NCBI GenBank assembly: GCA_943349825.1
Contig: CALQZQ010000002.1
Span: 124,001 to 188,000, forward strand
DNA: 64,000 nt
From: Candidatus Peribacteria bacterium
Lineage (GTDB): Bacteria > Patescibacteriota > Gracilibacteria > UBA1369 > 2-02-FULL-48-14
Reading direction: 5' to 3'
Part shown: piece by piece, positions 34,793 to 61,169 of the stretch
How positions within the stretch are numbered: position 1 is the stretch's first letter
How the letters are laid out: each line of letters begins with the position of its first letter
Program-made: the position numbers and the translations under genes
Notes under the pieces: generated by a model
What the model was told of the DNA's origin: nothing
The model's database searches: none
The model's input: the letters and a program-made list of their open reading frames with translations, nothing else

Positions 34793-35986
34793 CTACTGAA
34801 CGATGGGCGTTCCTGCAAGAGTGCCATCGGGAATCTGCTCAGCGCCGCTTTCCAGAGCGTCGAGGACTTCTTGAAAAGTCAGGTCAGGATTCTCCATAAG
34901 CAATCGAGCCACGGCCGCGCTCACAATCGCTGTGGCCTGGGAAGTCCCACTCTTATAGCCGTATTCATTGTGGGGCAGGGAAGAGCGCACATGATAGCCG
35001 TAAGCCGCCACATCCACCCACACTCCGTAATTGGAACTGGGCAACTTGTGCCCCGTGGCATCGGTGCTGGCCACCGCAATGGTTTGAGCATAGTGCCCAG
35101 GGTAAAATCCGGTATCGGCACCATTGTTACCCGCCGCCGCCACCACAAGCACGCCCTGCGCGTAAGCTGTGCTCACCAATGCTTCCAGAGCGTAAGAAGG
35201 AGAAGGTACCCCAAAACTGGAATTGATCAGATCCACATCGTCATCCAGAGCCTTGGAATACGCTTCGAGCACATTAGAGAGCTTACCGCCGCTGGCTCCC
35301 ACTATCTTATACGGCACGATTTCCACACCCGGCGCGTAAGTCGCAATGATGCCCGCAATATGCGTGCCATGCCCCACGTCGTCGTACATGCTGTCGTCGT
35401 CGTCCACGGTGTTCCAACCGGTTTGCACCGTAGTGCTTGCAAAAATTTCATGCGTTTCATCCATCCCGCTATCGATCACTGCCACTTTCACCGGAGAATC
35501 CACTTCCGAAGACAACTCTACAGGGGGGAGTTCCGGCGCAGCGCCCTGGAGCCTCCAAGTGAAAACAGGGCTTTCTAAACTCAAAATCTGGTCGCTCTCC
35601 ACATGTTCAAACTCAGGAACGCTAGCAGCATAGTCCGCCGCCGCGGCCGCCAAAGCCTCCGGACTCAAAGGAGTCGTGGGTTGAATCAGCAACATAGATT
35701 CGCCTCCATCCAGCGTCGCCACTAGGCCGAGTGCATTGGGATCAGCCTGTTCCAAGGGGAGCAGGGCATCAGCTTGGTAGAGTTGAGTCATCACGGGCGA
35801 ATCCGAAGTCCCGGAAAGGTCCTCCATAGACATGCCATAGCTGTGATTGAGCAGACTGAGTTGTTTCAGAGAATCGCTGGAGAAAGCCGAAAAATGAGGG
35901 TGCAGCTGAGCGTCGATCGTAGCGAGCGTCAAAGCCACCGCAATGGCCAAGGTCACCGGTACATAAGAGAGCCATTTTCGGTTCAT
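34793..35986 (-). CDS. Subtilisin-like serine protease (S8 family), exported
   Basis: I use ATG 35986 (MNRKWLSYVPVTLAIAVALT), which opens with a signal peptide or anchor; the track start at 36094 is far upstream with no support. The 397-aa protein has a prodomain-like region to about residue 150, then the S8 catalytic domain. The triad is visible: Asp in VAVIDSGMD, His in GHGTHIAGI and Ser in SGTSQATAI, with the oxyanion Asn in AAAGNNGA. It probably degrades or matures extracellular proteins. No C-terminal anchor is present. Confidence 0.92.
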   Translation of the reverse strand: MNRKWLSYVPVTLAIAVALTLATIDAQLHPHFSAFSSDSLKQLSLLNHSYGMSMEDLSGTSDSPVMTQLYQADALLPLEQADPNALGLVATLDGGESMLLIQPTTPLSPEALAAAAADYAASVPEFEHVESDQILSLESPVFTWRLQGAAPELPPVELSSEVDSPVKVAVIDSGMDETHEIFASTTVQTGWNTVDDDDSMYDDVGHGTHIAGIIATYAPGVEIVPYKIVGASGGKLSNVLEAYSKALDDDVDLINSSFGVPSPSYALEALVSTAYAQGVLVVAAAGNNGADTGFYPGHYAQTIAVASTDATGHKLPSSNYGVWVDVAAYGYHVRSSLPHNEYGYKSGTSQATAIVSAAVARLLMENPDLTFQEVLDALESGAEQIPDGTLAGTPIVQ

Positions 35987-36040
35987 GGGGCATGAAATTA
36001 ACCTGTTAAAGTAACAATCCCACAAATCCCACAAAAAGAC

Positions 36041-36069
36041 TAGACAAGATTCCCGGGATTGTATATAAT
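36041..36069 (+). promoter_or_regulatory. Strong promoter of a small-RNA candidate
   Basis: TAGACA (-35), a 17-bp spacer and consensus TATAAT (-10) at 36064-36069 predict transcription from about 36076. No gene starts within the next 100 bases apart from a 16-codon ORF, and a terminator follows. Confidence 0.65.
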
Positions 36070-36075
36070 GAACAC

Positions 36076-36163
36076 TTGTTTGACACTTAGTCAAATAAGG
36101 AGAATAAATTTAATTACGGTTGGAGAGGGCTCTTCATGGCGTGGAGGGGGCCCTCTTTTGTTT
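36076..36163 (+). ncRNA. Candidate small RNA or attenuated leader (about 88 nt)
   Basis: The predicted transcript opens with a hairpin TTTGAC-ACTTA-GTCAAA (36079-36095), followed by AAGGAG. It ends with a terminator whose arms AGAGGGC and GCCCTCT (36124-36156) are followed by TTTTGTTT. The 239-aa gene at 36194 has its own -10 box after the terminator, so this RNA looks like an independent unit. An attenuator leader for that gene is the alternative. No known RNA family was recognised. Confidence 0.5.
36124..36163 (+). terminator. Rho-independent terminator of the small-RNA candidate
   Basis: A 7-bp perfect stem (AGAGGGC with GCCCTCT) is directly followed by a T-rich run TTTTGTTT. Confidence 0.6.
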
Positions 36164-36913: not shown

Positions 36914-38340
36914 TACGCCCTCGCGAACAGCACCAGAGTGTCGGTGTCTTTGCCGGTGAGGACACACTTCGAACCCGCGGGTGCTTTTTCTTCGCAAAGC
37001 ACGCGGATGGTGGCCTTGGTTTTTTCCTGCATCTTTTTTTCGTCTTCTTCGCTGCCACCCCAGGGCGCTTTCACAAAGCCGCCGGTCTCATCGAGAATCT
37101 TGATCAAGTCTTCCAAAGTAGAAGCCTCAGACATATGGGCTTTCAAATTTTCCTGAGCGCGAGCCAGCATGCCACTTTGAATGTCTTCCAAAAGCGCAGG
37201 AATTTTCCCTACGATTTCGCTGAGCGCCATCGGCATCTTTTCGCTGGTGTCGCGGCGAGCCACAATCGCTTCTTGTTTTTCCAAATCGCGTGGGCCCACT
37301 TCAATGCGCAGCGGCACCCCCTTCAGTTCCCATTCGTTGAACTTGAAGCCGGGAGTCACGGTGTCACGCGCATCAAAATGCACACGAATTCCAGCCGCCT
37401 TCAAGTTCAATTTCAGCGTTTCCAAAGCAGCGAGCACAGCCTTTTGTCCGGCCTCATCTTTATAAATGGGAATCAAAACCACATGGTAGGGAGCCACCTT
37501 GGGAGGAAGCACCAAGCCTTTTTCGTCGCCATGACACACGATCAAAGTTCCGATGATACGAGTGGAGAGTCCCCAAGAAGTTTGCCACGCGAATTGCATT
37601 TCGCCTTTTTCATCCTGAAATTTAATACCGAAGGTTTTTGCAAAAGTCTGCCCGAGCAAATGCGACGTTCCCGCCTGTATCACTTTCCCATCTTTAGCCA
37701 GCGCTTCTGTGGTGCGAGTGTAATCCGCTCCGGCAAAAGTTTCCTTGTTGGATTTGGTCCCGGTCACTACGGGCAGCGCCAAAAAGTCGCGGTCAAAATC
37801 TTCGTACATCTTTAGAGCGCGATCCACTTCTATGGCAGCTTCCTCACGAGTGGCATGAGCCGTGTGCCCTTCTTGCCACAAGAATTCCGTGGTCCTCAAA
37901 AAAGGACGCGTACGCATTTCCCAACGCACCACGTTGCACCATTGGTTGATCTTCAGGGGCAAATCGCGGTAGCTGTGGATCCAATCGGCAAAAGAATCGT
38001 ACATGATGGTTTCGGAAGTCGGTCGCACAATCAGTGGTTCACCCAGTTCCTTTCCTCCGCCATGGGTCACCACGGCGCATTCGGGCGCAAAACCTTCCAA
38101 GTGATCTTTTTCTTTGGTCAACAAACTCTGGGGAATGAAAAGAGGGAAGTACATGTTCTGCACGTCCGCTTCTTTGATTCGTCGGTCGAGCTCCTTTTGA
38201 ACGTTTTCCCAAATCGCATAACCGTAAGGACGAATGATCATGCAACCCTTCACTTTGCTGTGTTGAGCCATGTCCGCCTTATCGACGACGTCTTGATACC
38301 ATTGTGGAAAGTCCTGAGCTTGAGAAGCGATTTTTGCCAT
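36910..38340 (-). CDS. proS: Prolyl-tRNA synthetase, archaeal/eukaryal type
   Basis: I start at ATG 38340 (MAKIASQAQDFPQWYQD), which fits this ProRS type; the track start at 38388 adds 16 unsupported residues. The 476-aa class II enzyme has motif 2 FLRTTEFLWQEGHTAH and motif 3 QTSWGLSTRIIGTL, plus the C-terminal zinc-like domain ending in ARAY. It lacks the inserted editing domain of bacterial ProRS. The separate YbaK/ProX protein at 2423 may compensate. The -10-like TACTTT lies 9 nt before the ATG. Confidence 0.95.
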   Translation of the reverse strand: MAKIASQAQDFPQWYQDVVDKADMAQHSKVKGCMIIRPYGYAIWENVQKELDRRIKEADVQNMYFPLFIPQSLLTKEKDHLEGFAPECAVVTHGGGKELGEPLIVRPTSETIMYDSFADWIHSYRDLPLKINQWCNVVRWEMRTRPFLRTTEFLWQEGHTAHATREEAAIEVDRALKMYEDFDRDFLALPVVTGTKSNKETFAGADYTRTTEALAKDGKVIQAGTSHLLGQTFAKTFGIKFQDEKGEMQFAWQTSWGLSTRIIGTLIVCHGDEKGLVLPPKVAPYHVVLIPIYKDEAGQKAVLAALETLKLNLKAAGIRVHFDARDTVTPGFKFNEWELKGVPLRIEVGPRDLEKQEAIVARRDTSEKMPMALSEIVGKIPALLEDIQSGMLARAQENLKAHMSEASTLEDLIKILDETGGFVKAPWGGSEEDEKKMQEKTKATIRVLCEEKAPAGSKCVLTGKDTDTLVLFARAY

Positions 38341-38409
38341 GAGTTCGGTAAAGTAGGCCCATTCTAAGGCATTTCTCCCTAATCTCAAAAGCCAGAGCTC
38401 GGGAAACTT

Positions 38410-38437
38410 TTGACAAAAGATTAAAATATATTAGAAT
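38410..38437 (+). promoter_or_regulatory. Consensus promoter of a leaderless gene
   Basis: TTGACA at 38410-38415, a 16-bp spacer and TAGAAT at 38432-38437 are followed by exactly 6 nt and the ATG at 38444. The A of the start codon is the predicted +1. This is the clearest leaderless promoter in the window because both boxes are present. Confidence 0.75.
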
Positions 38438-38443
38438 ATAGGC

Positions 38444-39058
38444 ATGATTAAATCAGTGGATTACACTCAGTGGGGTAGAAACGGCATGGAAAGGAGTCGC
38501 TTCCAGGGTGCGCGCTACCAGCTAGACAATCTGGAAGACATGTTTACTGTTCGTAAAGAACTTCTAGCTATCTTGGAAGAAAGTCATTCTAGCCTAGAAC
38601 AAAGGATTTACGACACAAATGCAGTGGCTTTCACCGAAATACCGAGAGCCCCAAGAGCGGAACCTTTTCTCTTGGATACCTGGAAAGGAGTAACTAGACA
38701 CGCTATACCTTCAGAATTGGAAGAGGCGATGAAAACCCTAAGAAGAGGGGCCACGGTGGCAAGAGTAGTCCCGGGCATGGGCGCATTCCTTCGCTACAAC
38801 GCTACAGCTGAACAAAAGCAAACAGTTCATGCACTCACACAAAAGGAAATCGACACGGTGGGAATGGATTTTGTCTTTAGAGGGGAAACGAAGCTAGGCA
38901 CCACAGTAAAAGAGTTCTTAGAGAGTTTGGGTATAGTTCAAAAAAATCCAAAGGGAGAAAGCCCTGCAGATACTTACTCAATAAGCGCTCCGTTCAACAG
39001 AACTCGTGAAGAAGAGGGCCACTACAGGAACTTACTGCTCCAACCCCTCCTCAACTAA
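38444..39058 (+). CDS. Protein of unknown function (204 aa)
   Basis: A soluble protein with a basic N-terminal part (QWGRNGMERSRFQGARYQ) and no signal peptide or recognised domain. It is convergent with the large membrane protein gene and overlaps its end by 4 nt. The consensus leaderless promoter suggests strong expression. Confidence 0.6.
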   Translation: MIKSVDYTQWGRNGMERSRFQGARYQLDNLEDMFTVRKELLAILEESHSSLEQRIYDTNAVAFTEIPRAPRAEPFLLDTWKGVTRHAIPSELEEAMKTLRRGATVARVVPGMGAFLRYNATAEQKQTVHALTQKEIDTVGMDFVFRGETKLGTTVKEFLESLGIVQKNPKGESPADTYSISAPFNRTREEEGHYRNLLLQPLLN

Positions 39059-45540: not shown

Positions 45541-46161
45541 ATGAAACTCTCCAAGAAAAAAATCGCGTTTTTCATAGTCACCACGGCGGTCATCCTCGCG
45601 TTGAGCCCCTTCCTGGTCCAATCCCTCGCCAAAATCTACACCGTCGAAGACGTGCCTGCCGAAACCGTAGCCATCGTCTTTGGAGCAGGCCTCGGGAAAG
45701 CGGGTGGCCCCAGTGATGTGCTTTACGATCGGCTCACCGTAGCCTCCCAGCTCTACAAAGCCGGAAAAGTGCAAAAAATCCTCGTGTCCGGGGACAATTC
45801 TTACGAAAACTACAACGAACCCGAAGTCATGACCACCACCCTCATCGACGCCTTTGCCATTCCCGCCGCCGACATCGGCCAAGATTTTGCTGGTCGCCGC
45901 ACCTACGACACCTGCATCCGCGCCAAAGAAGTTTTTGGCATCGAACAGGCCATTCTCGTCACCCAAGATTTTCACTTGCCGCGTGCCCTCTACACCTGTA
46001 ATTCGCTGGGTATCGAAAGCGTGGGAGTCTCCGCCTCGCTGCAGCCCTATATTTTGGAAGATTATTACGCTTTTCGAGAGTATCCTGCCACCCTCGCTAT
46101 GTTCATGGATCTTTACCTGTGGTCGCCCGATTATATTGAAGGGGAAAAGGAAGAATGGTAG
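45541..46161 (+). CDS. SanA/YdcF-like membrane protein (DUF218)
   Basis: A 206-aa protein with one N-terminal membrane segment (IAFFIVTTAVILALSPFLV) and an outside DUF218 domain: AIVFGAGLGKAGGPSDVLYDRL, KILVSGDNSYENYNEPEVM, DFAGRRTYDTCIRAKEVF and ILVTQDFHLPRALYTC. SanA-type proteins influence envelope barrier function; the biochemical activity is not settled. The TAG stop lies inside the left target-site duplication of a mobile element. Confidence 0.88.
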   Translation: MKLSKKKIAFFIVTTAVILALSPFLVQSLAKIYTVEDVPAETVAIVFGAGLGKAGGPSDVLYDRLTVASQLYKAGKVQKILVSGDNSYENYNEPEVMTTTLIDAFAIPAADIGQDFAGRRTYDTCIRAKEVFGIEQAILVTQDFHLPRALYTCNSLGIESVGVSASLQPYILEDYYAFREYPATLAMFMDLYLWSPDYIEGEKEEW

Positions 46162-46163
46162 TT

Positions 46164-46470
46164 GACGTGAATCTTGAAACTCCCTTTTGCTTGTTAAGGG
46201 ACCTACTCACTTTTTGAAGCGGGGAGCGAAGGTACTCGGATGCATGATCCTCCTACCTTCTTCCTTAAGGTTTATGCTTCAGAAAGTGAGTAGGTCCCAA
46301 ACCGAAAGAGAGTTTGAAATTCCATAACAGATAGAAGTTCGTGTACCTTTTGGGAAGCATTAACCCTGAAGGAAGCGGAGAGAAAGTTCATGAACTTTCT
46401 CGGAGCGTTCCATGCTGAGTAAAAGGCACACGAACTTCTCTTCTTGGGTTTGGAGTTTCAAGATTCACGT
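46164..46470 (+). mobile_element. Foldback element of about 306 bp, copy A
   Basis: A noncoding element flanked by the direct repeat TAGTT (46159-46163 and 46471-46475). The terminal inverted repeats are ACGTGAATCTTGAAACTC at 46165-46182 and its complement at 46453-46470. Hairpin 1 has 23-nt arms at 46198-46220 and 46276-46298 with a nested hairpin (GAAGGTA/TACCTTC) inside. Hairpin 2 has 19-nt arms at 46333-46351 and 46421-46439 and encloses a perfect 22-bp palindrome at 46380-46401. A degenerate terminal-repeat copy (GAGAGTTTGAAATTC) separates the hairpins at 46308. It is the reverse complement of copy B. No ORF is present, so mobilisation would have to be in trans. Family unknown to me. Confidence 0.85.
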
Positions 46471-46479
46471 TAGTTTCCC

Positions 46480-56554: not shown

Positions 56555-56631
56555 GGGCCCATAGCTCAGTTGGCTAGAGCGCTTCCATGGCATGGAAGAG
56601 GCCGTCGGTTCGAGTCCGATTGGGTCCACCA
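56555..56631 (+). tRNA. tRNA-Ala (GGC)
   Basis: The acceptor GGGCCCA pairs with TGGGTCC, with one G-U pair. The anticodon stem CTTCC/GGAAG has loop ATGGCAT (anticodon GGC). The T arm GGTTCGAGTCC and CCA are normal. A TATACT -10-like site lies at 56528-56533. Confidence 0.95.
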
Positions 56632-59894: not shown

Positions 59895-60857
59895 ATGCAA
59901 AGCGATCTGATTAGAAAAGCCACGGAAGTCCTCCAAGGGGGAGGTCTCGTCGCTTTTCCCACCGAAACGGTTTATGGCCTCGGGGCCAACGCCTTTGAAA
60001 GTGCTGCTGTCGAAAAAATCTTCAGCATGAAGGAGCGTCCCAGTTCCAATCCGCTCATCGTACACATCGCTGAAATCAGCCAGTTAAAAGATTTGGTTGA
60101 AAAAGTAGAACCCATGGAACAGCTGCTGATTGCTGCTTTTTGGCCTGGCCCGCTCACGCTCGTGTTCCCAAAGTCCGACAAAGTACCCAAAATCGTCAGT
60201 GGCGGCTTAAAAACCGTGGCGGTGCGCATGCCGGCTCACCCGATGGCCTTGGAACTGATCAAGAGCTGTGGCTTTCCCATAGCCGCTCCTTCGGCCAATC
60301 CATCCGGCAAACCCAGCGCCACCCACCACGAGCACGTAAAAGCCTATTTTGGAGATCGCATCTTCCGCATGGAAGGAGGCGAAACCCAGCACGGCTTGGA
60401 ATCGACCGTGGTTCAGGTGAAAAACAAAGTGCCGCACATCTATCGTCTTGGCTCGGTGACTCCGGAAGACATCGAACGTGTAACAGGTGTAAAGCCCGTG
60501 ATAGACACGCGTTCACCGCATTCGCCGGGCACCCATTTCAAGCACTATTCCCCAGAAACGCAGCTCTGCGTCTTGACTAAAGAAGTCTGGAAAACCCGCA
60601 TTTACCAAGCCCTGGAGCACGGCAAGCGCGTGGGCATTTTGGCCACCACAGAAAGCGCCAGAAGTTTGAGAGGTTTCGAAGTCACCGTCTTCGATCTTGG
60701 CTCCGAATCCAACCTCATGGAAGTAGGCTCCCGCCTCTACAGTGGCTTGATTGAGCTCGATCAACAGAAGTTGAATATAATTTTTGTTCAAGAATTTCCA
60801 AAAACAGGTTTGGGACTCGCCATCATGGACAGGCTCCAACGCGCTGCCAGCCGCTAA
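59895..60857 (+). CDS. L-threonylcarbamoyladenylate synthase (Sua5/TsaC)
   Basis: A 320-aa two-domain Sua5-type enzyme that makes threonylcarbamoyl-AMP for the t6A modification at tRNA position 37. The YrdC domain has FPTETVYGLGANAF, KERPSSNPLIVHI and APSANPSGKPSATHH. The Sua5 domain (after about residue 215: SPHSPGTHFKHYSPE) is complete, so this is the longer Sua5 form. The stop TAA is shared with the left target-site duplication and first base of element B. Confidence 0.95.
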   Translation: MQSDLIRKATEVLQGGGLVAFPTETVYGLGANAFESAAVEKIFSMKERPSSNPLIVHIAEISQLKDLVEKVEPMEQLLIAAFWPGPLTLVFPKSDKVPKIVSGGLKTVAVRMPAHPMALELIKSCGFPIAAPSANPSGKPSATHHEHVKAYFGDRIFRMEGGETQHGLESTVVQVKNKVPHIYRLGSVTPEDIERVTGVKPVIDTRSPHSPGTHFKHYSPETQLCVLTKEVWKTRIYQALEHGKRVGILATTESARSLRGFEVTVFDLGSESNLMEVGSRLYSGLIELDQQKLNIIFVQEFPKTGLGLAIMDRLQRAASR

Positions 60858-61161
60858 CGTGAATCTTGAAACTCCAAAGCCAAGAAGAGATGTTTGTGCG
60901 CCTTCTGCTGAGCATGGAGCGCTCTGAGAAAGTTCATGAACTTTCTCTCCGCTTCCTTTCATGCTTGATGCTTCCCAAAAGGCGCACAAACATCTACCTG
61001 TTATGGAATTTCAAACTCTCTTTCGGTTTGGGACATACTCACTTTCTGAAGCACAAACCTTAAGGAAGAAGGTGCGAGGATCATGCATCCGAGTACCTTC
61101 GCTCCCGCTTCAGAAAGTGAGTATGTCCCTTAGAGCGGGAAGAGAGTTTCAAGATTCACCT
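60857..61161 (-). mobile_element. Foldback element of about 305 bp, copy B
   Basis: It is flanked by the direct repeat CGCTA (60852-60856 and 61162-61166). The terminal repeats are ACGTGAATCTTGAAACTC at 60857-60874 and GAGTTTCAAGATTCACCT at 61144-61161. The copy is the reverse complement of copy A in order and sequence. The hairpin with 19-nt arms is at 60888-60906 and 60977-60995, holding the same 22-bp palindrome at 60926-60947. The hairpin with perfect 23-bp arms is at 61030-61052 and 61107-61129. The central degenerate terminal repeat is GAATTTCAAACTCTC at 61006. Noncoding. Confidence 0.85.
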
Positions 61162-61169
61162 CGCTAAGC

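Follow-up and report, generated by a model that had tools for sequence, protein, structure and literature searches.

A MITE-type element with two inverted hairpin modules in a Candidatus Peribacteria genome

The stretch of DNA analysed here (64,000 nucleotides of a Candidatus Peribacteria bacterium, hereafter the window) carries two copies of a non-autonomous, MITE-type transposable element with two inverted hairpin modules, which we have seen only in this species. This assignment follows from its conserved terminal repeats, its target duplications, the lack of a plausible gene and its unrelated insertion sites. Most likely, as judged by sequence comparison, one module of each of two subtypes was enclosed head to head in a single transposable unit in this lineage, because an apex motif is common to the two hairpins and related genera contain independent singles of either subtype. 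The explanation which accounts best for the whole, and in which we place moderate confidence, is a composite MITE-type element whose arms would undergo template switching and whose folded apex would be read by a putative protein. The features of the two copies, in window coordinates, are:

46159..46163, target-site duplication TAGTT, left copy, of copy A; it shares bases with the upstream gene's stop codon TAG
46167..46468, plus strand, composite element copy A, 302 bp, comprising in this order the left terminal repeat, hairpin 1, the centre, hairpin 2 and the right terminal repeat
46167..46182, plus strand, left terminal inverted repeat of copy A, GTGAATCTTGAAACTC
46198..46298, plus strand, hairpin 1 of copy A, module of subtype a
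46308..46322, plus strand, central quasi-palindrome of copy A, GAGAGTTTGAAATTC, weakly like both terminal repeats
46333..46439, minus strand, hairpin 2 of copy A, a subtype b module facing the other way from hairpin 1
46380..46401, 22-bp palindrome at the tip of copy A's hairpin 2
46453..46468, minus strand, right terminal inverted repeat of copy A, GAGTTTCAAGATTCAC
46471..46475, target-site duplication TAGTT, right copy, of copy A
60852..60857, target-site duplication of copy B, one side (TTAGCG in element orientation)
60859..61159, minus strand, composite element copy B, 301 bp, oriented opposite to copy A
60888..60995, plus strand (module orientation), hairpin 2 of copy B
60926..60947, 22-bp palindrome at the tip of copy B's hairpin 2
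61030..61129, minus strand, hairpin 1 of copy B
61162..61167, target-site duplication of copy B, other side (TTAGCG in element orientation)

Copies A and B, 89% identical in a pairwise alignment, are two of 12 full or truncated copies on six contigs of the organism's own 1.25-Mb genome (G000, a draft of 12 contigs), all of which are intergenic and many of which lie a few bases from a stop codon. Their 16-bp terminal inverted repeats have a mean pairwise identity of 0.95-0.97 among complete ends, and the longest open reading frame inside the element encodes 46 amino acids and is not a plausible gene. Direct repeats of 5-6 bp (TAGTT, TTAGCG, TATTTT and CTAAA) were found at near-constant offsets just beyond the terminal repeats in four of the six copies having both ends, and are absent from the other two. 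Flanks mixed between copies, which served as a control, share at most 4 bp at those offsets, and four duplications were reached in none of 20,000 shuffled sets (P < 5e-5). A blastn comparison of the element with plasmids and phages gave no match. Among the traits of MITEs that were considered, terminal inverted repeats, target duplication, small size without a transposase gene and dispersed copies are all present, and an autonomous element with the same ends was found neither in the 12-contig draft nor in 116 other genomes of the class or 18 contig ends. This result counts against the explanation, but autonomous partners are often missing for known MITEs, so that it is compatible with membership. 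As no such partner was found, we infer a putative transposase, probably of the DDE type, that would have moved the composite in trans via its terminal repeats.

In the congener (G001), the intergenic site matching copy B carries no element; intergenic divergence from this genome is too high for empty sites to be defined to the base. The gene upstream of copy A (window 45541-46161), which by eye we take to be YdcF/DUF218-like, is not syntenic in the congener and has a relative on another contig (C6:4293-4741), and copy A borders a segment whose gene order differs between the two genomes. The window also contains a tRNA-Ala(GGC) gene (56555-56631), which explains several strong matches of this stretch in the congener. 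Two further copies of the element (35830-36133 and 38140-38470, in G000:C5:32000-42000) lie in opposite orientation about 2 kb apart and flank two genes; the two copies of the window are likewise oppositely oriented, 14.4 kb apart. Such pairs could act as composite units or promote inversion.

The sequence-only reading had seen in the centre, GAGAGTTTGAAATTC, a degenerate terminal repeat framing each hairpin, as if two single-hairpin modules had fused, and it had placed this centre (46308-46322) and the tip palindromes correctly. The likeness to the right terminal repeat is real and modest, with a shuffle P of about 0.005 in both window copies and of 0.04-0.46 in three other copies. The centre is itself a quasi-palindrome, GAGTTTGAAAYTC, and therefore also resembles the left terminal repeat; it base-pairs, in the folds predicted for several copies, with the inner half of each end, which creates a three-way junction. 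The central repeat was rejected as proof of module fusion, its likeness being too weak alone, and the composite's terminal repeats are found in none of nine single modules (see below). What stands of the proposal is that there are two modules and that single modules exist, and the evidence for their fusion comes from a shared apex motif rather than from the centre.

Folding and alignment reveal one common plan for hairpin 1 and the reverse complement of hairpin 2, in which an outer stem of roughly 20-30 bp is followed by a 5' GGAGC(G/A) pairing with a 3' TTCC and by an inner stem closed by CATG, with a one-sided 3' bulge, usually of 10-11 nt, that resembles TTnAGGnTTR. This apex motif (GGAGC...CATG...TTCCT plus the 3' bulge) has opposite orientation in the two hairpins; when hairpin 1 is compared directly with reverse-complemented hairpin 2, the similarity is weak alone (P 0.015). 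Searching with a covariance model of hairpin 2 turned up single modules in G002, G003 and G004, which represent three other genera of this family, as well as one in the own genome; three more, two of them in the own genome and one in G003, came from a pattern search. By local alignment these nine singles split into four of subtype a, nearer to hairpin 1 (G003:C1:38048, G004:C11:111559, own C1:95686 and own C1:145668), and five of subtype b, nearer to the reverse complement of hairpin 2 (G003:C1:84634, G002:C26:5140, own C3:189220 and, less clearly, two on C4 and C1 of G004); the three of G004 lie close to the dividing line and are not clearly of one subtype. Local scores against hairpin 1 and hairpin 2 were 41 vs 14 for G003:C1:38048; against hairpin 2 and hairpin 1 they were 52 vs 12 for G003:C1:84634 and 53 vs 26 for G002:C26:5140. 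The outer stems of the singles have no common sequence and most are paired across 20-30 bp, those of G003:C1:84634 and G002:C26:5140 being poorly paired or broken. No module was found with the covariance model in the other 83 genomes of the order or in G001 and G005 of the family. Class-wide pattern matches outside the family were chance-like (about 0.4 per genome), and those that were read had no palindromic arms. Neither the exact pattern of the hairpin 1 apex in genome and viral contig collections nor the degenerate module pattern in the viral contig collection gave a match.

Four copies of the composite retain a single hairpin, namely hairpin 1 in C2:44839-45005 and hairpin 2 in C3:107345, C11:7439 and C1:256095. 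We read these as probable deletion derivatives and not as ancestors; in C2:44839-45005 the join lies at GTTTG, common to the centre and the right end. As deletions they answer the search for single-module relatives only trivially, and the actual support for that expectation is provided by the nine independent singles, with subtype a matching hairpin 1 and subtype b matching hairpin 2. Genes that by eye look like YerC/YecD, which we assume to belong to the TrpR-type repressor family, occur near a hairpin copy in two genera (G000:C2:45008-45319 and G004:C1:163638-163925), once directly adjacent to the copy and once about 740 bp away, which may be chance.

An identical tip on drifting stems had been noticed from the two window copies, whose 22-bp tip palindrome (46380-46401 and 60926-60947) reads GAGAAAGTTCATGAACTTTCTC, and the genome-wide comparison agrees. 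Allowing up to three mismatches, nine copies of the palindrome were found, seven of them exact, and a reversed-pattern control gave none. Instead of varying freely, the two altered palindromes are symmetric and still paired (GAAAAAG...CTTTTTC and GGGAAAG...CTTTCCC), and none of the nine departs from the centre AAAGTTCATGAACTTT; in one further hairpin 2, the tenth (C4:63688), a deletion has removed half of the palindrome. Mean pairwise identity between copies is 0.63-0.74 for the arms and 0.89-0.90 for the apices, values which, together with those of the terminal repeats, establish the invariant tip on a drifting stem as real. Despite their low identity between copies, the arms are nearly perfectly Watson-Crick paired. 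Changes on both sides were counted in 14 and 13 of 38 pairs, neither value being reached in any of 500 shuffles. Stem lengths co-vary as well (the arms of hairpin 1 are both 17, 18 or 19 bases long in most copies), and positions unpaired in the consensus are now paired in three copies (C5:38140, C5:83309 and C11:7439).

Selection for folding is able to yield such two-sided changes, and it is possible that it maintains the stems, alone or together with template switching. We propose that template switching between the arms keeps them complementary: during replication the polymerase would switch template in the folded-back strand and copy one arm from the other, and a mutation in one arm would thus spread to the partner arm or be erased. 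A mechanism at the level of DNA is preferred since homogenisation of inverted-repeat arms by template switching is documented (PMC7202029, PMC8604942); in REPINs, conserved ends are accompanied by compensatory changes in the spacer (PMC3116915). That CATG, GGAGC/TTCC and the bulge are kept across genera while the rest changes argues, at the level of sequence, for protein recognition or an RNA motif. The constant apex (GGAGC/TTCC closing pairs, CATG tip and one-sided bulge of about 11 nt) would, as we propose, be recognised by a putative protein reading the extruded hairpin or single-stranded DNA, in a REP/REPIN-like manner but by another enzyme. The sequence-only reading had suggested a protein-binding or recombination site, and the apex may be either.

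The very strong covariation and the asymmetric conserved internal bulge and tip, which are like those of functional RNAs, would also suit a structured non-coding RNA or a processed mRNA hairpin spread by transposition, whose stems covary for folding of the transcript and whose apex is an RNA-protein or catalytic motif. We regard this as unlikely, though as a serious candidate. Selection on a one-stranded RNA is expected to favour G-U over A-C, but G-U pairs are few, and in the outer stems on the module strand we counted 5 G-T against 13 A-C among about 670 aligned positions, small counts that reveal no preference for G-U. Moreover, the composite has one module in each orientation and its copies face either way relative to neighbouring genes, and none of three composite and nine single-module loci matched Rfam 15 at the gathering score. 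On the other side, stable folding has been predicted for the transcripts of other MITEs in bacteria (PMC10969869). A somewhat more doubtful possibility is that the single hairpin module represents the minimal mobile unit, of which the tip of about 55 nt would move alone while the outer stem would be made at each site by back-copying of flanking host DNA, which would explain why the singles share the apex and differ in their stems.

It appears quite improbable that a dimeric DNA-binding protein uses the apex palindrome as its operator in double-stranded form, with the hairpins merely carrying it. AAAGNTCATGANCTTT is a dyad of operator size with an invariant centre and several single modules lie between divergent genes, but the tips of subtype a differ from the palindrome, the outer stems are paired without common sequence, which an operator would not need, and the sites adjoin unrelated genes. 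Least credible is that the hairpins are REP/REPIN sequences mobilised by a TnpA-REP (RAYT) enzyme: inverted pairs of small intergenic palindromes with compensatory changes and an unpaired bulge, as matters in E. coli REPs, are reminiscent of them (PMC3116915, PMC8266576), but no Y1_Tnp match was found in the own genome, G002 or G004, while G001 has one yet no modules, no conserved GTAG or CGTC tag marks the stem base in the arms compared, and the composite bears terminal repeats as well as target duplications. REP/RAYT membership was therefore rejected, RAYT (Y1_Tnp, PF01797) having no match in G000 and its presence within the bacterial family not following that of the module. An IS200/IS605-derived element was likewise rejected, as the composite has terminal inverted repeats and target duplications.

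On the reading that we prefer, a MITE-type composite with template-switching arms and a putative protein at the folded apex, both the building blocks (the two single-hairpin subtypes) and the composite are visible within one bacterial family, which is rare for miniature elements. The stems, variable from copy to copy and yet paired, form a natural record of palindrome change, with which one can test what keeps hairpin repeats of bacteria folded: correction of one arm by the other, or selection. In this uncharacterised lineage of small genomes, the constant tip suggests a function exerted by a protein or an RNA.

Among known systems, the pneumococcal BOX elements are modular intergenic repeats of sub-units able to fold; they differ in module arrangement and sequence, the element described here being an inverted pair of two module subtypes. 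With prokaryotic MITEs (e.g., QMITE2, PMC10969869) it has in common the small size, terminal inverted repeats, target duplications, the absence of a gene, the intergenic position and the stable folding predicted for transcripts. It differs from them in that its core is a hairpin module present twice in inverted arrangement and also dispersed independently, and that the parent insertion sequence was not found in the genomes searched. REP/BIME/REPIN sequences (PMC3116915, PMC8266576) likewise pair two small inverted hairpins that have a conserved part, a variable stem with compensatory changes and a stem bulge, but here the conserved part is located at the tip and not at the base, the GTAG/CGTC tag is absent and the genome has no RAYT. 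In quasipalindrome correction (PMC7202029, PMC8604942), the arms of inverted repeats become identical complements by copying; this is a mutational process and not an element, whereas here its long-term action on a mobile family is proposed.
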